From assembly GCF_025602895.1 (NCBI RefSeq), contig NW_026516224.1:186001-250000 (forward strand): a stretch of DNA of 64,000 bases, given 5' to 3'. The notes below the pieces were generated by a model that ran no database searches, was not told where the DNA came from, and saw only the letters and a list, made by a program, of their open reading frames with translations. Positions within the stretch are counted from its first letter, which is position 1. Each line of letters starts with the position of its first letter. Source of the stretch: Polychytrium aggregatum (taxonomy: Eukaryota > Chytridiomycota > Chytridiomycetes > Polychytriales). A program made the translations under genes and the position numbers. This document shows, piece after piece, positions 4,169-55,764 of the stretch.

Positions 4169-4302
4169 TTCCGGATCTCAAATGCGCACATGTCCAGGAG
4201 TGGTCGTCGGGGTTGGAACATCTGGACCTCTAGTCGAAAGCGCCTGTGTCGCTGCCGGCGGTGCGTGGGAAATTCTATGCCGGATCGCGGGTTCTTCTGC
4301 TA

Positions 4303-4628
4303 CTGTCATTCCAATAAAAACGGGACACCTTGGTTTTTGGTCATTGACCGAATATTTCGTTTCCAAACACCATCGCGCGCTGGTGGTGACCATTCTGTGA
4401 TGCGGTGCTTCGCCCTCATCCATGGCCTGAGAAACGTTGCCTCCATATTCAGTATGTCCAAGAGCACCACTCACCGCTGGCACTCCGGGATCAGTGTGCA
4501 TGTCGATTGTGGAGACTGGAGAGCGACCGGTGGTCTTCACTCGGAGGCTGCCAAAGTGATCTGTTTATTTCTTATGGCATAGTTAGACGCATGCCATCAC
4601 ATACTACATGTTCATGGAAGCGGGTGTG
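4303..4628 (+). mobile_element. internal-deletion derivative of the transposase-Fanzor element, right end lost
   Basis: A flanking TA at 4301-4302 is followed by ATTCCAATAAAAACGGGACA, matching the left end of the full element at 46307. The next bases match the transposase 5' region, including the codons for VASIFS and HRWH (4438-4485). Near 4497 the sequence jumps to the 3' end of the Fanzor gene (matching 49752 onward), running through the Fanzor stop region to ttcatggaa. The right terminal inverted repeat is not recognisable; similarity stops near 4628. The reading frames are broken, so the element is non-autonomous. It lies between the acyl-CoA synthetase start and the SIKE-like gene stop. 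Confidence 0.85.
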
Positions 4629-13804: not shown

Positions 13805-13980
13805 GTCCAGTCCCGGCGTTGGTTGGTCGGGATGCGATGCAGATCCAGGCTGGGCGATCAGAGGGAGATCTGGAGCAGGTTCAGCAGCAGCGAATGTGAA
13901 GCCAGCGCGCCCTCGAAAGCGGATTCCAGACACAAACTTGCTCCCGATCTCGACATGGAGAGTGTGGACTTTACACTGTA

Positions 13981-14222
13981 TTCAGGGGGAAATGGGACAC
14001 TTGCCCACAACCCATTTGTCAGCGTAGTATGCGACGGCAGGCGTCTAACTATGCCATAATAGAACAGATCACTTTGGCAGCCTCCGAGTGAAGACCACCG
14101 GTCACAGTGCAGCGATGCGGAAATCGAGGGTGCTGTGTTTGGCCATGATTGCGATGAGTGGGTGGGTGTATTCAGGTTCCAGAAGAAAACCCCGTCATGG
14201 CTCAAAACGGGGTGTCCCAGTG
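13981..14222 (-). mobile_element. 242-bp internal-deletion derivative (MITE-like) of the transposase-Fanzor element
   Basis: Both ends sit inside flanking TA dinucleotides (13979-13980 and 14223-14224). The left end TTCAGGGGGAAATGGGACAC matches the Fanzor-side terminus of the full element (TTCAG...CGGGACA). The right end, reversed, reads CACTGGGACACCCCGTTTTG. On the minus strand the element reads the terminal repeat, then ATG and 14 transposase codons (MAKHSTLDFRIAAL against MTIRHTSDFRTAAL in the full copy). It then joins directly to the Fanzor 3' end (gaccggtggtcttcactcgg). It lies 147 bp downstream of the STAND gene stop. Confidence 0.85.
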
Positions 14223-14369: not shown

Positions 14370-17300
14370 TCACATCGCCGGTGTGGCCCTCGGGGCCTGT
14401 TTCAGCTGGCCTGTGATGCCGCCCCACACCTTGATGGTCTTGTCATTCGAGCCAGATACAATCCACTTGCCATCGGGTGAGATCGCCACAGAGGTCACAC
14501 TGTCCGTGTGTCCCTCGAGGGTGTGCTTCGGCTGGCTGGTGGCCGAATCCCATACTCTGATGGTCGCATCATCCGAGCCAGAGACGATCCACTTGCCATC
14601 GGAGGAGAAGGTCACGGAGCTCACCCAGTCGGTGTGCCCTTCGAGGGTGTGCTTCGGCAGGCCTGTGGCGGTATCCCACACCTTGATGGTCCAGTCGTTA
14701 GAGCCAGAGATAATCCACAATCCATCGAATGAAATGACCACGACGCTCACATTACTTGTGTGCCCCTTGAGAGTGTGCTTCACTTGGCCCGAGTTGATAT
14801 CCCACACCTTGATTATATTGTCGCCGGAACCGGAGGCAATCCACTTGCCATCGGGTGAGATCGTCACGGAGTTCACAGCGCCTGTGTGTTCCTCGAGGGT
14901 GCGTTCCATCTGGCCAGTGGTGGCATCCCACACTTTGATAGTCTTGTCGTATGACCCAGAGATGATCCATTTACCATCGGGTGAGATCGCCACCGAGGTT
15001 ACGGGCTTGATGTGCCCTTCAAGGCTACGACTGACTTGACCCGTGGTAACACTACGCACCTTGACAGTTTCATCGTCTGAGGCAGAGGCAATCCACTTGC
15101 CATCGGGCGAGATTGCCACAGAATTCACTTGGCTCGAGTGACCAGTCAATGTCATCTCACACGGATCCCAGGTGGGTGCTGGACCAGCCGTGACCAGGAA
15201 CGGGATCTTGTCCTCGAGCTGGGTGGCATATGTCTTGTAGATCGCCGTCTCCTTCGGTGTGAATGCATACCCCGAGTTGTACACCTGTGGTGCACTCTTG
15301 ATGATCGGATCGGCAAACTCGCGGATGAATCGATACGTGTCCTTGACCAGTTCCTTCGTGGTGTCGTCGACGATGGTGCTGGGTGCCTTTGTGATCACTC
15401 CTCGGAGCACAGCCAGTTGCTCGATGATCGGCTTGACCACATGTGTGAGCGACCCACACTCGAGCCAGAAGAACACATGTGTCTTGACGAACCGAGTGAG
15501 CACCGCTGCCACATCGACCATCTCGACCGACTGCCACACCGGACTCGACTCGGCCACTCCACCCACACACCACACAAAGTGTGTGATCCAGTGGGCGACG
15601 CTGTATCGCAGCGACGGTGTGATCTTGGCTGCGACCCTGTCCTCTAGGTCAGCGATCTTGTCGTGAAAGTCGTAGATCTCGCAGATGTTGATCACCGGCT
15701 CGTGCGAGAGGATCACTCCGAGACATCCCTTGGCAAACACCGTGTGGAACGAGTCCGACACATGCCATGGATGGCCAGTCGATGTGTCGCCGAGGAGATA
15801 GTCCGCCACCGACTTGTGGTTGAACTTGACTTCGGTGTTGGTGGACTGGCTGTCTCGGGGACCCAGTCCATTGGCGCCAGGATCGAGGACCAGAGTGAGG
15901 CTCGTGAGACACTCGCGAACGACGCCGATCTCGAGTCCAAACACATCGGCGATGATCTGCGGGGTCAGGATCGACTGGGCCGTGGCGATCGCCGACGCCA
16001 CCGTGACCGACTCGGCCGGGTGGCTCGACTGCGAATGGATCTTGGCGAATGTCTTGTGGTACAGCTGGCCGACATCGGCGGCGCTGTCGTTGATGTCCTT
16101 GATCGTGGCGAGTGTCACCGGGCCGTCTGTGGATGCTGCATCGACGGTGTTGAGGATCAGGTTGATCCACACGAATGTCTTGGACTGGTCCAGCAGGATG
16201 GCGACTGCCTCGGTGCGGTCCGAGTCAATGAGAGTGCCGTGCACTAGCAGTCGGTGATGGATGTACACCTCGAGATCACGGATGTTCTCCTCGCTCGAGG
16301 GCTCGATCGTCTTGGTCGGGACTCCATCGAATGCTGCCTTGATATCGTCCTCGGGACGGGATGTCAGCAGCTTGAGCCACGGATGCTTTGTGTGCAGTCG
16401 CTGCAGTCCACTGGCCAGGAACCCGAGGATCTCGTCGCGGGGATGACACTCGTCCAGTCCATCCACCATGATCACGATCGCTTCCTGTGGTTTGTAGCCA
16501 CCGACAGCCGCGAGTGGATCCTCAATCAAGGCCTTGAACAGCTCGGAGATGCTCATCTTGTCGAGGTCGTCTTTCTTGTGACCGGCGTCGAGGAGCTTGC
16601 GGCCGATCGGCGAGTACCACTTGCACAGACCGTATGCGATGGTGTTTAACACCACTCGTGGATCGCTCTTGCGGATGTCGTTGTACTTGATGAACAGGGC
16701 CGACACCAGCTGTGCGTTTGCCTGGAGGATGTTGGCGATCTGGGCGGCAGCAACAGACTTGCCCACTCCAGCAACGGCATTGACCCACAGGACCCTTGTT
16801 TCTTCAGAGACCAGACGAGTCCACTCGATGGTCTGGTCGAACAGCCACTGGCGAGTGCCCTCGACAAACAGATGCTCAAGTGCTTCCCTGTCCAGGGCCG
16901 AGTCGATAGGATCAAGGAGGAGTCGCAGGGCGTGGTCCTCGTTGGCAGTGAGGACAGTCGATCCACTCGGCAGATAGGCTGGTACAGTGGCAACGAGGCT
17001 GGTCTTCTTCCAGGTCTCACGGATCTCGGGGACGAGTCTGTGGATGTGTGAGTCAGCATCTGGATGGTCTGCATCAATGGACTGATGGATGCCATCAGTA
17101 AGTCCGACACAGACACACTCACTTGGTGACGGCATAGTCGTCGGCGGCAATCAGCGCCTGCAACTTGAGCAACTCCTCGAGAGTCTGGCGCACGGTGAGG
17201 GGAGGGCTGATCTGGCCGAGTTTGGAGGGACTGGCTCTGTGGCAGTGGATGGCATTGGGAAAGTCGATTGTGTTGGGGAACCAGTCCCTGGTGTACTTGG

Positions 17301-44531: not shown

Positions 44532-46094
44532 TCACTGGACCAAGCAGACTCGGCTGGGCTGCTGCTTTTGTTTATGGAAATTTGAAACCGAGCTCCGATG
44601 GATGAGGCATTCCAGGACGGCCCGAACAGGCTGGTGATCCGATCCGCGAATCTTGGGGCAGCTGGTATATATCCGCGGAGTGACCGTGACCCAGGGCTCG
44701 GAGCAAAACAGAATGCGATCGGTCCAGGAGGGAATCCGTTGCTTGGCCGAAGAATCGTATGGAGGGACCGTGTCGGTTTCCTCTGGGGCCGCCTGCGGCG
44801 GCAAAGGAGCAGCAGAGTCGCTGACGACAGCAGTTCAATCAAGAGTCGCATGTGGCCATTAGTCCAAGGCGTGCCGCAGACGATACTGCAGATTGAGGGC
44901 CCGAAAGCATCAGAGGCACATCCAATTCGTAGAGTCGCCGCCTGTGCTGCCAGGACACTGGGGGCGGTATCCATCAGCGGAAAGTGATTCCCAATCTATG
45001 GCATGAATACATACACGTCAAGCTTGTATGTGGGCAGGAAGTGAATGGGTGCCTCGATGAAGCCATGGAAGCAGTTTCCCTTCTTCATCTCAGTTTGCAG
45101 CTGGTCGTTATTGAGCAGCACTTCGAGAGCGCCGTCGGCGAGTAGCTTGTTGGCAACTGCGCGAGTTCCTTCGACTCGGTAGTTCAGGTCCCCGAACCAG
45201 ACAACAAGCGAGAATTTTTGCAAAGGTGGATGGTTCTCGAGGATGCGAAGGTAGTCCTGATTGCGCTCGACCGTCTTTTCCTGGTGCGCTACTCGACGGG
45301 GGTGGTATCAGTGTTGTGCCTACAGGGTCAGAATATAGGCCAGGGTGGCTCCGAGTGCAATCCAGGGACACAGGCGGGGTATTTACCCGTCAGATGGCTG
45401 TTGACGAACAGAAACGACGATCCGGCGAATGTGAACGAGATCGAGGCGGCGCCCTTATTGCCAAAGACGTTCCCGACGCCTGTGGGAACGCGATGTGTAT
45501 GGATGTCTGCATGTGGACGATGGATGGATGAGAATGTGTTTTTGCATCCGATCTGGAGTTTGCGGTGCAAAGAACGGATGTGGCTCCGGGGCAATGGTCC
45601 AACTGACGATGCACTGTGATCGTCGGGGTCGATGCTGAACTGTGCAAGAAACGGCGCTGGCGTCGACCTACTGGATATCAGGGCGATGTGCTCGTGTCTG
45701 GCAAACACAGCGATGTGGATTCCTCCAAGCGACTCCGACTTCACAAGGCAGTGGTCGGAGAGAATATATTCGAGGAGCTTTTTATCCCAAGCGTCCTGGG
45801 CGGACGAGGCGTCGATCGCTCTTTGGCATTCCTGCACCCCAACGACAATGAGGTCAAAGCCGTCGGTGCCATCCCTCGTCGACAGGAAACTGTCCATGTT
45901 CTGGGTTTGTGGGATCTGCATAACGAAGCGAGCAAAGAGTACAGATATCATGAGAAACAGGGAGCAGACTAATACGTTGTTTGGGACTTGCCTCGTCGTC
46001 CACCTGCATAATAGCACCCGAGTTTGGGAGAATGATATTGGAAATCGACCTTGCCGTTCATGTTCCACGTACCGACGGAGATACGGACTTTCAT
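44532..46094 (-). CDS. inositol polyphosphate 5-phosphatase (IPPc domain)
   Basis: The start is MKVRISVGTWNMNGK (46094), matching the first IPPc motif (GTWN.NG). Next are DGFDLIVVGVQECQRAIDAS (second motif, catalytic Glu; ~45860), GGIHIAVFARHEHIALISS (~45690), HRVPTGVGNVFGNKGAASIS with FLFVNSHLTG (~45490-45390) and YLRILENHPPLQKFSLVVWF with GDLNYR (~45250-45180). After further exons come YKLDV, YDSSAKQRIPSWTDRILF and SDHQPVRAVLECLI (~44600), with the stop at 44532. The motifs N.H, GDLNYR, P.W.DR and SDH.PV are the complete catalytic set. It removes the 5-phosphate from inositol phosphates or phosphoinositides. The protein is short and lacks recognisable Sac1 or SH2 regions, so it resembles a type I or stand-alone enzyme. 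Confidence 0.9.
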
Positions 46095-46391
46095 ATTTGG
46101 GTGACGAAGAGAGAGGATGGACAGAGAAGCAGGATTGAGAAACGATATGGGGAGAGGGAATAGGCATTCAGGCGACGGCCCAGGCAAAGTAGCGGGCAGC
46201 GATGAATCTGGAGAGTATCAAGCTTGCCTATGAAGGGACCTTGCTCCGGCCACGGCTCTCGAAAAATGGCCGAGTCGTGATTGGATGCTGATGATACAGC
46301 GGTTTATTACAGGCAATCCAAAAAAACGGGACACCCGGGTTTTTGACCATTCATCGAATATTTTGTTACCCAATGTTATCGCGCGCTGGCC

Positions 46392-47318
46392 ATGACCATT
46401 CGCCACACATCCGACTTTCGCACCGCCGCATTGCGATGCTACGCCCTCATCCATAGCCTGCGTAAGGTCGCCTCCATATTCAGTGTATCCAAGAGCACCA
46501 TCCATCGATGGCACCGAGGATGCAAGCTGGATGACCCATCCCGGGTCACAGCTCGCAGATCCACTTTCTTCGAGCAGGCATGTCCAGTCATTCGCACCCT
46601 GATTGAACAGGACCCGTTCCAGACTGGTCCTGTGCTGCGATGCAAGCTCGAGTCCATCCTCCAGAGGAAAGTATCACTCTCACTCTGCCACACTGCCATC
46701 CACCGAGCAGGTCACTCACACAAGAGGGCAACACACCTCTACAAGTCCAAGCGACTGGATGAGCGAGTGGCACAGTTCAGGGACCAGGTCCGCTCCATCG
46801 ACCCGCGGCGATTCGTTTTTGTCGACGAGACAGGGATCAGGAGATCCATTTTCCCTCTTTACGGATACTCGCCGAAGGGTGCTTCGCTTCGCTAGCGCAA
46901 TCACATGAAGCACAAGTCTGTCTCGGCTGCATTTGCCATCAACCACTCTGGTGTGCTGCATCGCATGTACATCCCCACATCATTCAAGACACACTCGATG
47001 GTCGAGTTCTTTGAGCGAGCGAGCTTCCCAGACGACTCTGTGATTGTGATGGACAATGTCAGCATGCACAAGACAATGCCTGTCCTGGACTGCATCGATC
47101 GCCGAGGATGGTCAGTGATCTTCACCCCACCTGCCTCGCCCGACTTCAATCCCATCGAGAACTTCTTTGGGGTTGAGTCCCCACCGATTTGGGGTTTAGT
47201 CCCCCAATCACGCCGCCATTTTCACGTTCACATCCCTGGCTTGAACCTCTCGGCGATTTTTGAACAGGGTCACTTCCCCAACCAGCCCGCAAAGACGGGT
47301 TCCTGCTCTCGGGTATAA
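46392..47318 (+). pseudogene. IS630/Tc1-mariner-type DD34E transposase with in-frame TAG
   Basis: The start is MTIRHTSDFRTAALRCYALI. A helix-turn-helix follows (LRKVASIFSVSKSTIHRWHR), then PVIRTLIEQDPFQTGPVLRC. The DDE core is RRFVFVDETGI (D145), DSVIVMDNVSMHK (D221) and SPDFNPIENFFG (E256), with 34 residues between the last two. A single TAG at codon 168 (46893-46895) lies between SPKGASLR and RNHMKHKSVS, in the same frame as both halves, so it reads as a nonsense mutation. After ENFFG the usual C-terminal region is replaced by unrelated residues ending at 47318. The enzyme would cut and paste at TA sites. As written it yields 167 residues with only the first Asp. Confidence 0.88.
47169..47204. 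repeat. two GGGGTT-AGTCCCC motifs at the transposase-Fanzor junction
   Basis: The sequence ggggttgagtcccc (47169-47182) is repeated as ggggtttagtcccc (47191-47204). It lies exactly where transposase homology ends, so it may mark the junction at which the Fanzor module joined. Confidence 0.6.
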
Positions 47319-47320
47319 AT
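47314..47320 (+). promoter_or_regulatory. putative TATA box of the Fanzor gene
   Basis: TATAAAT lies about 130 bp upstream of the Fanzor ATG (47447), after the transposase homology ends. This is consistent with an independent Fanzor promoter. Confidence 0.4.
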
Positions 47321-47446
47321 GCCGCACCTTCGTCCTGCTGCTTTCTTCCATCATCTCGCCTTGATCTGATCATCGCGCCATTGTACGATAAAAAAGTCTC
47401 TGTTCTGACCAGTACCACTGGCAGGCATCCAGCATCCTCTGTCCCC

Positions 47447-49819
47447 ATGCCTCCGAAGCGCAAGGGTACCGGTGATGGCCAGCCTCGGCCACCCAGGCCC
47501 AAGAAAGCCAAGTCACAGTCGGAGCCTGTCTCTGGTTCGTATTCTGACCCCACGCATGCTTGGTCGTCTGTTGCTCCGTCGCTCACCACCACTGCTTCTG
47601 CAGATCCAATGGATGTCGATCCCACCGAGCCTGGTCCATCTACTTCCTCGAGTACCGGCAAGCGATGTCCCAAGTGCGATGGCACCGATCACGAACGTTG
47701 CAACACCAGCAAGTGTCCAAAATACCGGCCCCTCAAGAGTTCTGTCGTCCCACTCGTGGATGGAAGGTCATCCGCCCCTCAGTTCAGCTGCTTCAAGCAG
47801 ACGATGGATGGCTGTTGTCTCAATCCCGCTCTCCGCGACAAGATCCAGGCCACCGTCGAGGCCATGACCCAGATCCAGTTCGAGGCATCCAGGCTGCTCA
47901 ACCTGCACATCCTCCGGTGCATCGAGCAGGATCTTCCCGTCCCTGTCATCTCCAGGGCCACCCCTGCATTCATCCGTCAATGCTTCAAGATCGTCCAGGA
48001 CGGTGCCCTCTCCCCGACCGGGGACAATGAGAAATACAACGAGCATCTGGTCGCTTCCTTTCGCGACTACCAGACCACTCGGCACGCAGACCTGCCTCCG
48101 GCCCCTCGTCTGCCTGATGGTGCTCACAGTCAGCTTCTCACCCTGGCTGTCAATGCCTATGCCACCAACTGCACCACCCACCTCAACCTGGCCTACTGGC
48201 GACTCCTTCGCCGCTTCTGTGCTGCCGTCTTCCCAGCCAACAAGCATAAGCACGAAGCCATCGAGGCCTGTCTCGAGCTCTTCGAGAAACCAGGGCAGAC
48301 TCCACCCAAGGCCGATCTCGAGTTCCTCTATCCAGACTTTGGCCACGTCCTGGACGAGTTTCGGTACAGCAGCGACCAGGACCGCTTCCGGGCCCTCCAC
48401 CGCCTCTCACACCATGTGGGAATCCTCGCCCGGTACAAGATGGTCGACGATGTCCACAAGTGGATCGACTGTGACATGCCCGCCCTCCGAGTCACCGAGC
48501 TGCAGCGCCAGGCCAAGCTGGACGAGCTCACTGCCCGAGGCATTCCCTCCGACGACAAGAGGTTCACCAAGGCCAAGTCTGAGCTCGGCACCACCAAGTC
48601 CAAGATCAACAAGCTGGCATCCAGGATCAAGTGGGCACTGAAGCAGCTCGCTCTCGACACTCCTCCGGCCGTGTGCACGATAGTTCCTCTATGCACTGCA
48701 AGGGCCAAGTATGTCAAGATTGACACGGTCACTCTTTGGCAACTCCTGGGTCCAAAGAAGCGCCTTGGACTCACCCGGGACAAGCTCAAGGAAGAAGGTG
48801 AGGACGGTGTCAACAACCAGGATCGTCTCTGGCGCAGTTGCTTCAAGCTGCGTAGTTCCCTCTTCCGTGACCGGGATATCAATCACAAACTGTTCAACTA
48901 CGAGATCAGCACCGATGCCATTGGATGCACCATCGGTCTCGTCAAGTTTGTGCGTCGAACCGATCGCACCGAGACCTCCGAGCCTCCTCCGACTGCCGAG
49001 TAGCGCATCCAGGCCCACATCGGTGACCCAAACCCCAACCGCACCACTTGGATTGGCATCGATCCTGGAGTCGGCTCCATCTTCACGGCGGTCATCCAAG
49101 CACCGGGCCACCAAGACGAGGTGGTCTCGTTCTCCAATGGTCACTATCAGCAAATGTGTGGCCATACGTCCAACACCGACTGGCACAACACCATGAAGTA
49201 TCGACTCAGCATCGAGACCTGGATGTCGACCACCCCCTCGCCCAAGGTGTCGTCCTCGGAGGCTTTCAAAGTCCATCTCACCCATGTCCTGCGACCGGAG
49301 CTGCGAGTGCAGCTCGACTTCCACCTTGGCAAGAAGGCCCGTCACCATCGATTCACGGGCCACAAGAGGCGCCAAGTGGCCGTTGACAAGATGTGCAAGG
49401 CCGTCCTGAAGCACACCCCGATACGGACCGATGTGGTGATCGCCTTTGGCAATGCGTCATGGCGACAGGGCAAGGGCTATGCATCCAGCCCTCGGAGGCA
49501 GCGGTTTGCTCGGTACTTTGAGCAGTTCGAGCACCACCGACGCCGTCCCAATCACCCTCACGGAAGCGTCAAGGTGGCCTCGACGAACGAGTTCAACACC
49601 TCACAGGTGTGCACCAAGTGCCTGGAGCCAGTTCGGTTGGAAGGACTCGATGCGCCCAGTGTTGCGAATTCCCACTTTGTCAGGAGCTGCAAGAATCCCA
49701 GCTGCCGGACAGTGTGGAATCGCGACGTCAATACGGCGCGCAACATGATCACAGTATGCAGGTCGATTGTGGAGATCGGAGAGCGACCGGCGGTCTTCAC
49801 TCGGAGGCTGCCAAAGTGA
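47447..49819 (+). CDS. Fanzor1 RNA-guided nuclease (eukaryotic TnpB homologue), one in-frame TAG
   Basis: The start is MPPKRKGTGDGQPRPPRPKK, a likely nuclear-localisation signal. A zinc knuckle follows (RCPKCDGTDHERCNTSKCPK), then a helical body (DKIQATVEAMTQIQFEASRL, VPLCTARAKYVKIDT). The RuvC fold has WIGIDPGVGSIFTAVI (D539), VVIAFGNASW where TnpB has its second acidic residue, the substitute Glu in STNEFNTSQVC (E715), the zinc finger VCTKC...RSCKNPSC, and WNRDVNTARNM (D760). The Glu lies 47 residues after the Gly of FGNAS, matching the rearranged active site described for Fanzors. The end is GERPAVFTRRLPK. TAG at codon 519 (49001-49003) precedes RIQAHIGD; everything else is one frame of 790 codons. 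A 54-nt in-frame intron (gtgcgtcg...gagtag, 48950-49003) could remove it. Otherwise the product is catalytically dead. Confidence 0.9.
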
Positions 49820-49913
49820 TCTGTTTTATTTCTTGTGGCTTTGCTTGACGCAAGCACAGCACATACTACATGTTCATGGAAACGGCTATATTGTCCCGTT
49901 TTTTTTTTCTGAA
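49752..49913 (+). ncRNA. putative Fanzor omega-RNA (guide RNA) scaffold region
   Basis: This covers the last codons of the Fanzor, its 3' flank and the right element end. It is the only Fanzor-side sequence kept in both deletion derivatives (common part about 49784-49885). It includes the short palindrome-like gaccggcggtc, followed by cttcactcggaggctgccaa. In TnpB and studied Fanzor loci the guide RNA spans the gene 3' end and element end, with the guide read from flanking DNA beyond the end. That this applies here is inference; no folding or RNA data were available. Confidence 0.35.
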
Positions 49914-50867
49914 TAACGTGTAGAGCCAATTCAATATAAACGGGTCGAGAAACAATCGCATGGCTTTCTCACTGGATGGATCAGCAGACTTGTGTCGCTG
50001 ATGCCAGAGATTGACTGTCCCGTTTCTTTCTAGATTGATTGTAGGCGAAATGTGTGGATTGAATGGCGTCGATCGATCGATCGTCTGCCGGATGCCATCG
50101 ATGAGCGCTCGCACTGCGGTGATGGGCTTGACCGATGATATTAGAGTCTTGGACCGACTCGATTCGACGGGCACCCAGGGATATAAGTTCCAGAGGACTA
50201 GACCCATCGGCCTCGAGCCCAATCATCCGCTATCCGTCGCTCCCAACGAGCATCTGCAGCGGATATCACTATCAATTTCGATGAGCACTCTGGCTGCGAA
50301 TCCCCTCCGTCTGCAGCCAAAGCGAGCGGCCAAAGCGAGCGAGTCCCTCCCGCTCCGTCCCGCCCCGCTCGCTGGTCACCCGAGAGACTCCCACTATCAA
50401 TTTTTTCCGGCCCCCTGGCGGCTGCTCATCTCGGTCACCTGAAAGTCACGTTGTATGTGGAGCAGCAATAGTTGGAATCCGGCCATGGTCGGTTGACGGC
50501 ATTTGGTATCACCTTGAGCCAATTGACGGTGGTGGTGGGCAATTGGTGTGGAGGAATGACCAATTGTATCATTGTTGGAAGCTCCACTCCGATTGCGGAC
50601 AAGAACCACCACCATCTGAATCTCTCTGGTTGGAAACCTAGTCAAGCGTGGCTGTGTGTCAGCGAGATGACATGATCGTTTGGCTATCAGGCAAGACTCA
50701 CCTTGACAAGATGTCTTCCCACGACTGATTGAGCGAGCGATGCGTTTCTGGATCTGAATCAAGGACGCCACTGCACAGTATCACTGCCAGCCCAAAATGC
50801 GCTGGTTTTGAGGAGAATTTTTCTTCCCCAAGGGCAGAACCAGCCATCGCTGCTATTTTCTCGCCAG
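49914..50867. other. region between the two Fanzor genes
   Basis: This holds a possible left terminus for the second element (ataaacgggtcgagaaac, ~49938) and a lone terminus-like stretch ctgtcccgtttctttctaga (50018-50038), a near-copy of that at 53446-53466. No transposase fragment and no other gene were recognised. Confidence 0.4.
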
Positions 50868-53470
50868 ATGGCTCCCAAGCGAAAGACACCCCCCGATCCC
50901 GACCCGGGATCACCCAATGACTCTCCTGTGGCCAAGAAACCCGTCATCAAATCGTGTCGTGCCTGTGGCCTGACCAACCATGTTAGGCCCTTCACCAAGA
51001 AGTGCACAGCCAGAATCGACAGCAGCCCTGCCTCGGTCGCTGAAATGGTCAGCCAAGCACCCAAGGTCCCTGTATGTGCCACGTGCGGGGAAGAGGGTCA
51101 TACCAGAAGCAACACCCCAAAGTGCCGTTTCTATAACACTCTGGAGCTCTACCTTGCCTGACTGTGGCCCAAACGAGCAAGTCAAGGCCGAGTACTCAAT
51201 CATCAAGTGCACTCTCGATGCCATCATCAAGAACGACACCTTGCACGACAAGATCGAGGAGACTGTCCGAGCCATGACTCAAGTGCAGTACGAAGCATCT
51301 CGTCTCCTGGAGCTGCATCTCAGGCGGTGCTTGGACGAGGGCATCACCCTCCCCACTGTGTCGTCGAGTGAACCCGCGTTTGTTCGAAAATGCTTCAATA
51401 TGGTGCAGACAGGAACAGTGAGTGCCAAGAAAGGCACGACTCAAGAAGACAGGCACATCCTCGACACATATGAGATGTACCGAAGTACATGGAGTGGATC
51501 GTGTATCCTGCCTCCAGTGTCCCTCCCAAAGGGCACTGGGTCACAGGTCCTTGGTTTGGCTGTCAAGACCTATGCAGTCAACTGTGAGACCCATATTCTC
51601 GATCGATACTGGTCTCTCCTCCGTCGATACTGCAACCTGGCCCTGATTGCTCCCAAGGGTGTGAAACGGCACACACACGTCGATGAGTGCATGAAGCTGA
51701 TGGAGAATCCCCTCTCCAAGACACTCCTCGGTGATCTGAGAAAATCCTTCGCCCACCATGCCGACCAGTTGTATGAGTTTCGGTACGAAAGCCACCAGGA
51801 CCTGTACAAAGTCGTACCAATTCTGGCCAGTGAAGTCTCTCGCCTGACCCACCTGAAGGAGGCCCTCTTCATGGTGGTCTTTCAGAAGATGATCATTCCC
51901 AGGCTCGCGAGGGATACCGATGTTCTGAAAGGAGAGCGCGGGCGACTGAACGAGGAGATGTGTCAACCCATCCACCACATCGGGGCTGACAGACTCGAAG
52001 CACTCCAGACCCAGCACGAGGAGGTGTGCAAGCAGATCACCATCAACACGAAGCGGATCAAGCGATTGACCGATCGACTTGCCCAGACCAAGAAGCGACA
52101 CAATGTCCCTCGAGCACAGTGCACCTTGGTCCCGCTCTGCGATGCCAGAGCCAAGTACATCAAGCTCGACACCAGAGCACTGTGGGAAATCCTTGGATAC
52201 CAGACTGGCACTGGTCTCAAGTGGGACGACCTGAAGACCAAGGTCAATGGCACCACAAAGCAAGAGACCTTCTGGCAGACCAACTTCAAGCTGGATCCGA
52301 GACTCTTTGGTGTCAGGAAAGAGGGGAAGCAGCTCTTTGGTTGCGTGATCACCACCGATGGAGTCGGGTGCTCGATCACCACACTCAAGTACAAGATCCT
52401 GGAGAAGAAGGACCCTGATGCCAAACCAAAATCCACGGACAAGACGAGCGCACTCACTCCCGAGCAGAGGATCCAGACCAGGGTCGGTCCCATTGACGAC
52501 TCTCGGACCACATGGATTGGGATCGACCCTGGAGTAGGATCGATCTTCACCGTTGTCATTCGAGCACCCGGTCAACCATCCATCCAGGAGCGAGACGGTG
52601 TCAAGGTGACCAAGGCACAGCGTGCCAACGAGAAGATCGTGTCGTTCTCCAACAAGGAGTACCAGCATCGAACTGGCACCACCCAAGCGACCAAGTGGAT
52701 CCAGAGCACCCACAAGATCCTTGGTCTGCAGAAATGGATGAGCACCACACCGAGCCCCAAGATCCCTGGAGTGCCTTCTTTCTTACGATATATTCGCCAT
52801 GTGTTCACTGGAGACATGCTGGACAAACAGCTGTACTTCAGCCTGACCCGGCGACGGCGATTCAAGCGACTCGATCTCTACGGCAAGCGACAGCGCACCG
52901 TCCACGAGATGTGCAAGCAAGTCATCGACCAGGCACTGAAGGAGACCGAAGTGGTGATTGCCTTTGGGAATGCATCTGGAAACAGGGGAAGGGATATGCT
53001 TCCAGCCCACGGAGACTCAGGTTCGCCAAGTACTTTGAGCAGTTCACCCACCACCAGAGACGACCACCAGACCGATCCGTCTCCAAGATCCATGTGTGCT
53101 CGGTGAACGAGTTCAACACGTCCCAGGTGTGCTCACATTGCCGGGAAGCCAAGCGACTCGAGTCACCCAAGTATCTTGATGTCGAGAAACCACATTATGT
53201 ACGGAGCTGTACAAGCTGCCATACGCTGTGGGATCGAGACATCAATGCAGCCAGGAATATGATCTCGGTATGCCAGTCGATCATCGCCACAGGAGATCGA
53301 CCGGGTGTATTCAAGACTGTGCTTCCCAAACCAACCAAAACAAAGCGATTGCCAACGAAGACAGGAGTGCAATGCCATGGCCTGCCCGCTGGGCCTACAA
53401 GTCAGTCAGCGGGTTCAGACATCTGAAGCCAGAAATGGGATCTGTCCCGTTTCTTTCTGGATAGACTGTA
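49936..53470 (+). mobile_element. second Fanzor element, boundaries approximate
   Basis: The right end is well supported by tgtcccgtttctttctggat (53450-53469), an inverted copy of the TCCAGAAA.AAACGGGACA-type terminus. The left end is uncertain: either the AAACGGG motif near 49940 or a lost end. It contains only a Fanzor and no transposase, so it would depend on a transposase in trans. It adjoins the right end of the first element. Confidence 0.45.
50868..53426 (+). pseudogene. second Fanzor1, disrupted by two frameshifts
   Basis: The start is MAPKRKTPPDPDPGSPNDSP, then two zinc knuckles (CRACGLTNHVRPFTKKC and CATCGEEGHTRSNTPKC). The frame shifts near 51125-51160, then runs open: DKIEETVRAMTQVQYEASRL, LVPLCDARAKYIKLDTRALW, TWIGIDPGVGSIFTVVI. 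Near 52985 it shifts back. A single base is missing relative to the first copy in the block encoding FGNAS-W, inside a G/A-rich run. The last part reads KQGKGYASSPRRLRFAKYFE, NEFNTSQVCSHC, VRSCTSCHTLWDRDINAARN, GDRPGVFKTVLPK. All three acidic RuvC residues and the zinc finger are present but in different frames. Identity to the first copy is moderate, so they are distinct family members. Assembly indel error cannot be excluded. Confidence 0.85.
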
Positions 53471-53595
53471 AGTATTTCGCACTGTTCCTTGTGCATTTCG
53501 ACAGTGGATGCCGGGTCGCCCATATTCTGGGCAGTCCACTTCGGGGTTGCCATCCCTCTTGGGATGGTCGATGGGAGGTGTTTGACTCCCTTGCA

Positions 53596-53598
<3 letters not shown>

Positions 53599-53638
<40 letters not shown>
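53599..53638. repeat. (GT)n microsatellite
   Basis: About 20 uninterrupted GT units lie 120 bp right of the second Fanzor element and upstream of the GID4 gene. Confidence 0.95.
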
Positions 53639-53644
<6 letters not shown>

Positions 53645-53895
53645 GTGTGTGTGTATGACGGCGAGAGGCTTCTCGCCTTCCCTCGGGGGTCTCTCGCCAG
53701 AGACTGCTCTTCTCGCCGACCGAGGTGGCTCCGAGAGCGCGTTTTTTCGTTCTCGCTCATTTTTTTAACAAGAAATTTTTTCATAGTGTCCTCGACCTTC
53801 CCGCCAATCGAGCCGGCTGCTCGATCGCCCCTCTCCCCAAGACCGTACCTCTGCTCAGCTTGGCACAGGCTCTCGCCTCTCTCATCCAGCCTTCG

Positions 53896-55764
53896 ATGCC
53901 CGGCACCGCAGAGCGAAAACGCCGGCTCCAGCTGCACTCCATGAACTGGAATCGCCCCTTACCACCGCCCGCGACCGATCCGTCCCCAGACACCCCACAT
54001 ACCCTCTCTCCGACCCAGAAGGCTCGGCTCCGAAACCGCGAATGCCGCCATCTCTACTCGGGCTCCCGATTTCAGGGCACCCAGAAGAGCGGTCGTTGTA
54101 GCTACAATGTTACAGTCCAGATACAGGTGTGTTGAGCGGAGCAGATACGAGAATGTCCTCGCTCCGGACATGCCGATCCTGCGATTCGGCGAAACTGTGG
54201 TCGTTCGCCAGCCGGACTCATGTGAATGCATCTCAAGGATCGATCCTGTGTCGTTCCACCGCCATGTGGGCACTCTATCGATCCATCCACACCTGATCCT
54301 CGGCTAACAATCGGAAGGTCTCCTCCACTCCACAGCATGTCGATTTGGACACGTCATTCCTCTGCGGATATCTGCATATCGAGGGACTTACAGAGGTGTG
54401 TCTGGGTGCCATGATCCAACCCAGGGAGCCCATATTTTCCTTCTCCTTTGCAGGCCCGAGTGCGATCGCCGTTCGACATTGTTGCTGCAGCCATTGTATC
54501 GCATGGAACTGTGCCTTGATCTGATCGTAGCGTCTCTGCTTTCCGGCGGCCATCCAGGAATGGCCCACGCTTTGCACGTTCTTCGAGGCAGAGATTGTCG
54601 GCGATCGCTACTCGTTTCTGACCAAGAAGTGGGATGCCGATGCCGACGTCGATCGCATGCACTGGGTATGGCTTCGTGTCATTGGAGCTCTGAGGCAGTG
54701 TCAAGGGGGGGTGAGACTCGGATTGCAGGCTGGAAGACAATTGGCCAACTTTCGATGTCTCTGTGTCCGATGCGGGCATGATAGTCCATCGGCACGTCGG
54801 CACATCGGCATCATAAGCGTGCAACTGGCTGACTCACGACACCTCTTCGCTCGCCGCTGGTGCTTCGTTGGCCGATCAACTCCATCAAACGATGCAAATC
54901 CACTAACCAACTGTCCAACGGAATGGCGATGGGATTTAATACTTCGACCGACGATTCCTGCCCGCACACCGCTATGGATAGACAAAGTTCCCAGCCTTCG
55001 AGCCCTACCAAGAGTGCTTTGCTTCAGAGAACTTTCAGTGCGACAACACGAATGCGAATGTACTCTTTATGCGATGGAAGGCAAGGCATCGCCGTGTTTG
55101 AGTGCATGGGCAACCGTAGGGACTCGTCACCACCACTTGCTCAGCCTCTAATCTCACGACAAACGGGCTGTACTTGCAGGAGCACTTTCTGGTCCCAGAC
55201 CACCGTATCGAGACCATCACCGGTGCCTCGTTTGCAGGTTTCTATTACATTGCGTACGACCGAACCGCTGGGACACTTGTTGGATACTACTATGTCGGTA
55301 TTGTCTGCGCCGCCAGCCCGAGTCTCGAAACAAATTGCCTTTGGCGAGATTTTGTCAGAGTCTGGCAAAGGCAGCACATTGACCGGATACTCCCACTCGG
55401 CGCTGGTCTTGTTGTGGCCGATCCGAGTCTTTCCAGTTTCCGCTGATACGCGCTCTGATACCCGCTACCCTTTAACTCATTATCGGTATCCAACATCTTC
55501 CTCACCACATCATCGTGGGGCGCTATCTTCTGCGACAACAGCACAAGAGCTCTGAGAAGTTCCAACGACTGAGCCTCCGCCACCAGTCCGAGCGGCACTT
55601 TGGGGGTAAGCTCGAGTGCTGTTGCTCACAGTCTGTGAGACCTTTACCCATCACACTGTCTCTGGAAACCTGGTTGACGAGCCGAGTAGATGCATCTCGG
55701 CGACGTCGTGCTGTGCTTGCGACTACTAAGAATGCTCCGTGTTACAGTATACGAGTTCCGATAG
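53896..55764 (+). CDS. GID4: GID4/Vid24 substrate receptor of the GID/CTLH ubiquitin ligase
   Basis: The start is [20 protein letters not shown] (53896), then [20 protein letters not shown], the GID4 LYxGS.F.G.Q.S signature. [20 protein letters not shown] follows (~54340-54390), then [20 protein letters not shown] with [11 protein letters not shown] (~54570-54665). [20 protein letters not shown] (~54990-55045) comes next, then [10 protein letters not shown] (~55052), [20 protein letters not shown] with [18 protein letters not shown] (~55175-55290), and [20 protein letters not shown] (~55540-55605). A last exon joins at cag|TATACGAGTTCC to give VYEFR and TAG (55762). Six or seven exons. GID4 recognises proline N-degrons, for example on gluconeogenic enzymes. 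Every conserved block is present in order, so the call is firm. Confidence 0.92.

Follow-up and report, generated by a model that had tools for sequence, protein, structure and literature searches.

A dead Tc1/mariner-IS630 transposon copy with Fanzor1 as second gene in Polychytrium aggregatum, and the one-sided T before the left TA of its family

The genome of the chytrid Polychytrium aggregatum contains a family of Tc1/mariner-IS630 DNA transposons whose second gene is, judged by its sequence, a Fanzor1. This family was analysed from one locus in a stretch of 64,000 nucleotides (assembly GCF_025602895.1, contig NW_026516224.1, positions 186,001 to 250,000 of the forward strand), named here the window, whose numbering is used for all coordinates; the searched assembly comprises 64.7 Mb in 418 contigs. 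The window locus is a dead copy of this family. At nearly all insertion sites a T directly precedes the left TA; on the right side, the A that would mirror it does not exceed the background. This one-sided TTA signature is what is new in this family. We propose, with a probability of about 0.57, that the Fanzor would use a guide taken at the right end of the element to cut one-sided TTA sites, that repair would restore the element and that defective copies would be served in trans. This proposal is built on the common ends, the TA on both sides, the two genes on one strand, the many copies, the relatives with both genes open and the derivatives that keep the right end.

The element and its two genes

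The original prediction had placed a complete TA-flanked transposon at 46307..49913. The element and its TA flanks were confirmed by the alignment of the ends with other copies, and the limits had to be corrected (Table 1). Position 46307 is the flanking T, the left end being at 46310, and position 49913 still belongs to the right inverted repeat, 7 bp short of the true end at 49920. In the aligned copies, conservation extends from CAGG to GTG, and the sequence outside the TA varies, except for the T before the left TA. The left inverted repeat is 26 bp long in most listed copies versus 24 bp in the window copy. As predicted, the inverted ends have a sequence in common, AAAAAAACGGGACA, present in both repeats, and the outer halves of the repeats differ. 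Terminal inverted repeats, a character of Tc1/mariner-IS630 elements, are present.

Table 1. Features of the window copy (window coordinates).
Feature	Position	Strand	Remarks
Left TA, presumed target duplication	46308-46309	.	preceded by T at 46307
Element, window copy	46310-49920	+	end alignment with other copies in the same genome
Left terminal inverted repeat	46310-46333	+	24 bp in the window copy
IS630/Tc1-type DD34E transposase remnant	46392-47174	+	profiles and residues; family call on intact copy L039
Fanzor1 gene	47447-49819	+	790 codons plus stop; internal TAG at 49001-49003; C4 zinc finger
Putative omegaRNA scaffold region	49820-49922	+	Fanzor stop to right end; kept in seven short derivatives
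Right terminal inverted repeat	49892-49920	+	
Right TA, presumed target duplication	49921-49922	.	the G before it belongs to the element (GTG, then TA)
Predicted guide, if the window copy made omegaRNA	49923-49942	+	right flank; inference from PMC10432273; extent assumed

The first gene is a transposase of the IS630/Tc1 type, as had been predicted. The residues D145 (46824-46826), D221 (47052-47054) and E256 (47157-47159) form its catalytic triad and 34 residues separate D221 and E256, which defines the DD34E signature. The second transposase fragment of the window copy matches DDE_3 with 50.4 bits (cut-off 28.6). The intact transposase of the copy L039 (310 amino acids, aa) reaches 122.1 bits with the NCBIfam IS630 profile (cut-off 100) and 85.2 bits with Pfam DDE_3 (cut-off 28.6). 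The window transposase is broken by a TAG at 46893-46895, where L039 displays CAG, and 105 + 21 bp (about 126 bp) of its C-terminus are deleted in comparison with L039. The family resembles the IS630 family by this profile score, by the DD34E signature and by the TA on both sides, and differs from it in having Fanzor1 as second gene and in its eukaryotic host.

The Fanzor contains the RuvC residues D539 (49061-49063), E715 (49589-49591) and D760 (49724-49726), and a zinc finger composed of C722/C725 and C748/C753. T718 S719 and R759 D760 flank this C4 finger, and five residues separate C753 from R759. The published Fanzor/TnpB motif is D-X(125,275)-[TS][TS]XX-C4 zinc finger-X(5,50)-RD (PMC3627910; here and below, what is said of the cited publications refers to excerpts of their text). 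The residues D539, E715 and D760 and the four cysteines have the order and spacing of this motif, and the predicted Fanzor1 with its RuvC residues and CxxC zinc finger, on the strand of the transposase, is thus supported. The L039 Fanzor (790 aa) scores 39.2 bits with the Pfam TNB domain (cut-off 26.3) and weakly, 28.2 bits, with the TnpB family profile (cut-off 100). Its best match among solved structures is SpuFz1, a weak one (E 0.15, 49 residues near the C-terminus), and a comparison with viral contigs gave no close relative. The elements of the IS200/IS605 and IS607 types with TnpB likewise encode a RuvC nuclease, and by analogy with them a guide region would be expected at the right end here; the present family has a DDE transposase and not an HUH enzyme or a serine recombinase, and its TnpB score is weak.

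The codon TAG at 49001-49003 in the Fanzor of the window copy is CAG in L039. We rejected the possibility that TAG is read as sense, because the Fanzor is open by the standard code in 29 of 40 long copies. The window copy had been described as coding for both proteins. Neither frame is open, with stops in both genes and the C-terminus of the transposase deleted.

Insertion sites and copies in the genome

A whole-genome search for the element ends, proposed as a check of the original prediction, yielded 396 left-type and 279 right-type ends with at most 3 mismatches, so the window copy is not the only one. The 396 left-type ends include ends of a related family (family 2), and reversed-pattern controls of the end searches gave 0 matches. 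For each type of end 100 places were listed; the pairing used 78 of the left ones, on contigs present in the right list, and all of the right ones. These gave 53 pairs of 279 to 3786 bp, 23 of them of 3714-3786 bp and 10 of 279-1110 bp.

The flanks were studied on 83 insertions, reduced to 70 sites after removal of 13 with a repeated flank. TA is found before the element at 70/70 sites and after it at 68/70. T directly precedes the left TA at 67/70 sites, whereas the mirrored A follows the right TA at 10/69 (one site is without right flank), which is the background: in the window, T precedes 14.1% of 1367 TAs and A follows 13.2%. Counted per site, 57 have the T only, one the A only, nine both and two neither (sign test, 4e-16). 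Position -2 displays a weaker excess of A (32/70). G precedes the right TA at 70/70 sites, but this G was part of the pattern used to find the ends. The flanks vary directly outside the TA on the right and outside the TTA on the left. In the whole genome, just 6 places, representing 5 sites or fewer, combine the exact left end with a base other than T; among the one-mismatch rows, the first 76 that are readable include 65 exact left ends with T. Of the three sites that lack the T in the set of 70, two (L031 and L123) have TG and not TA at the right end, which suggests that they arrived by a different route.

The long copies were obtained by a similarity search with the window copy, of which the best 40 of 1229 candidates were scored. 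This sample of 40 copies, including the window copy, represents 35 distinct sites and leans towards the class of the window copy, because candidates were scored by similarity to it. The Fanzor is open in 29 copies, the transposase in nine and both in eight. In class A (>3700 bp, n = 10), the Fanzor is open in nine copies, the transposase is complete in nine and both are open in eight. Class B (3601-3634 bp, n = 18) carries a common transposase deletion, with 12 open Fanzors, no intact transposase and no copy with both; the transposase frame of its copy L017 is fused, with 308 aa. Class C (3233-3498 bp, n = 12), mostly with a second deletion, has eight open Fanzors, no intact transposase and no copy with both. 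Taken together, classes B and C have an open Fanzor in 20/30 copies and an intact transposase in 0/30. The window Fanzor frame starts shortly after a truncated transposase, as it would if the Fanzor were a separate element lying by chance inside a mariner copy. This explanation, to which we give practically no credence, is refuted by the presence of both gene regions in 40/40 long copies and by the complete 310-aa transposase ahead of the Fanzor region in 9/10 class A copies.

The ratio of nonsynonymous to synonymous polymorphism (pN/pS) is 0.33 for the Fanzor and 0.24 for the transposase (36 copies). It separates neither the Fanzor from the transposase nor the live from the truncated classes, perhaps owing to sequence exchange between copies. 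A signature of repeat-induced mutation was not seen, C-to-T singletons at CA being only 31/159 and not concentrated.

Seven short copies (279-381 bp) were read fully. All seven retain the right end, and in each the beginning of the transposase region runs directly into the final codons of the Fanzor. Deletion derivatives joining both genes, announced by the original prediction, are thus found: these seven in the genome and an older one at 4300-4625 of the window. In the latter, the transposase start (4394-4489) is fused to the Fanzor end (4491-4556), the right repeat is missing and a C precedes the left TA.

Many flanks occur twice in the assembly and probably represent two haplotypes. Both lengths were measured for 19 allelic pairs, six of which differ by more than 100 bp (3634/3498, 3476/1110, 3414/3739, 3629/308, 3496/3631 and 3614/307 bp); the pairs 3594/3471 and 3385/about 3614, with one end inferred, were not counted. 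In five allelic pairs compared base by base, the elements differ at 338/18192 positions (1.86%) and the flanks at 14/9170 (0.15%). On the multiple alignment, 266/343 allelic differences are polymorphisms whose two states both recur in two or more other copies. The simplest reading of these differing allelic copies is an exchange between copies. It is also possible, though we doubt it, that the differences are artefacts of assembly or polishing in a repeat. Such artefacts would touch the evidence for turnover only and are compatible with the other readings considered here. The near-identity of the flanks and the 266/343 differences shared with other copies would be mimicked by mis-mapped polishing reads; the length classes 135 to >3000 bp apart in 6/19 pairs could come from mis-assembly but not from polishing.

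Proposed mechanism and alternatives

In the element Spu-1 of Spizellomyces punctatus, a conserved CA precedes the left repeat but not the right one, the target-adjacent motif (TAM) of the Spizellomyces Fanzor was measured as CATA, and guide RNAs of ghosts work (Saito et al. 2023, PMC10432273). Spu-1 and its SpuFz1 have the same anatomy as the present family, with inverted repeats, conserved upstream bases on the left only and many ghost loci keeping the right end, as the seven short derivatives do here. From this anatomy and the one-sided T, we predict that the target-adjacent motif of the family is TTA (perhaps WTTA), where Spu-1 has CATA. No transposase is reported inside the ends of Spu-1 in the text consulted (PMC10432273), in contrast to the IS630/Tc1 transposase of the present family. 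We found no report of a one-sided TTA-type flank for a mariner Fanzor in the literature searched, which covered few subscription papers.

The following mechanism is proposed. The DD34E transposase would excise the element and insert it at TA. The Fanzor would bind an RNA from the right end of the element, the guide being the DNA immediately to the right. It would then recognise an emptied or uninvaded site by the one-sided 5'-TTA (perhaps WTTA) beside the guide, and cut it. The right junction of an occupied site consists of G, TA and the flank, so the T could separate an empty from a filled site; the occupied site would be spared because the element's own GTA precedes the guide there. The break would be repaired from another copy, bringing the element back to the site. 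Transposase-dead copies and Fanzor-less ghosts could persist by being served in trans.

Several observations weigh against this mechanism. The pN/pS of the Fanzor is no lower than that of the transposase, even in the transposase-truncated classes. The T is not universal, as indicated by the 6 exact places (at most 5 sites) cited above and by three one-mismatch variants of the end of the present family (family 1) with A or C at -1, in a search where variants with T were not visible. At -1, eight family-2-type ends carry A in four cases, C in three and G in one, in a search that could not display family-2 sites with T, and four of these eight are followed on the same strand, about 1.5 kb downstream, by a family-2 Fanzor; because of these eight ends, the T at -1 is not general across families with a nearly identical left end. 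Concerning the guide RNA, single folds of the right end are weak (shuffle z-scores -2.15 to 0.13). The right-end alignment leaves the fold unsupported, with 2/30 consensus pairs double-changed and a covariation term of +0.84; its 11 sequences are the 12 fetched, minus L134 (one difference from L131) and L137 (identical to L136), plus the window ghost. An Rfam search of 46000-54000 in the window gave no family match. The base-level differences between allelic copies could be polishing errors. Finally, empty alleles, in which the flanks are joined with one TA, were searched for 69/70 sites and none was found among the scored candidates (the best 40 in each search, of 56, 187, 528 and 358). As no pre-insertion sequence was found, it is from the aligned ends that TA is read as the duplication and that the T is assigned to the flank.

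The absence of empty sites was not used as evidence for homing. Allelic flanks differ by 0.15%, compared with several per cent between copies from different sites, so shared insertions are expected by descent anyway. It bears on another explanation, in which the T before the left TA belongs to the element and the duplication is other than TA, or does not exist. The frequency of the T (67/70) is near the mean frequency of the major base within the element (0.975), and no empty site was recovered. IS630/Tc1 elements habitually target TA, and TA is indeed found on both sides of the copies (70/70 and 68/70), with flanks that vary just outside the TA on the right and outside the TTA on the left. 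We therefore consider this explanation improbable.

An ordinary TA transposon would also be conceivable, if less likely, with a left-only T reflecting a target or end preference of the transposase acting on asymmetric ends, and with the Fanzor as a passenger or of other help. The two ends of the element do differ in their outer halves. The T is strong in family 1 and absent at the eight family-2-type places, and it could equally follow the transposase; moreover, the short derivatives without Fanzor also carry it at 8/8 distinct sites. One would expect TA transposases to prefer palindromic targets, yet the mirrored A is at background. Furthermore, the one-sided pattern of Spizellomyces coincides with a measured nuclease motif (PMC10432273).

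Beyond the cutting of emptied or uninvaded TTA sites by the Fanzor, we advance tentatively, as a rather doubtful extension, that the Fanzor might be the replicative engine of a cut-and-paste transposon. A site with TTA and the guide sequence would be cut, once the element has left it or on an allele not yet invaded, and the repair would copy an element from anywhere in the genome. If true, such copying would account for the one-sided TTA, for the spread of transposase-dead copies with intact Fanzor and of ghost copies, and for the sites with different versions of the element on the two alleles.

The association itself is not new. The pairing had been thought possibly undescribed, but PGv-1 and PUl-1 already combine a Mariner-like transposase with Fanzor1 and display TA duplications (Bao and Jurka 2013, PMC3627910), and mariners are named among the Fanzor1 carriers (PMC10711439). 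The present family is thus a known kind of element, and members with Mariner-type ends and Fanzor only, such as PUl-4, also exist (PMC3627910). Compared with PUl-1 and PGv-1 by their descriptions, it is set apart by ends numbering in the hundreds in a genome with two or more Fanzor families, by transposase-dead size classes with open Fanzor, by short ghosts and by the one-sided TTA signature. The role of Fanzors for their carrier transposons is discussed as unresolved in PMC10432273. Here the transposase, ghosts, copies in which both genes are open and a predicted motif come together in one genome, so that the nuclease role becomes testable. The flanks also suggest that Fanzor motifs can be read directly from the asymmetry of insertion sites.

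Related elements and other features of the window

A second, diverged Fanzor is present at 50868-53470 of the window, about 40% and 61% identical over two frame pieces. It has its own right end, TGTCCCGTTTCTTTCTGGATAGACTG, at 53443-53468 with TA at 53469-53470, and a remnant of a transposase C-terminus lies beside it at 50683-50751. Its family, family 2, gave 77 matches from the best 74 of 655 genome candidates, many with long open frames. A short ghost-like element at 49923-50043 (about 119 bp and TA) resembles the right ends beside family-2 Fanzors. This element adjoins the right side of the window copy, which therefore occupies the terminal TA of another element.

Family 3, with ends GAAACGGGACAC...GATGACTTG, was examined as a possible Fanzor-free control. 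It has 53 genome matches, whose outer parts are degraded (18 fetched); about eight ends are readable, several with T at -1. At about 13974-14222 of the window there is a related short repeat that seems to lie on the minus strand, with an end like CACTGTATTCAGGGGGAAATGGGACAC, and an end similar to CACTGTATTCAGGGGGAAATGGGACAC adjoins the derivative at locus L055. A long frame on the minus strand of the window (14373-17150) combines an NPHP3-like N-terminal domain with WD40 repeats, an architecture that we label NLR-like.

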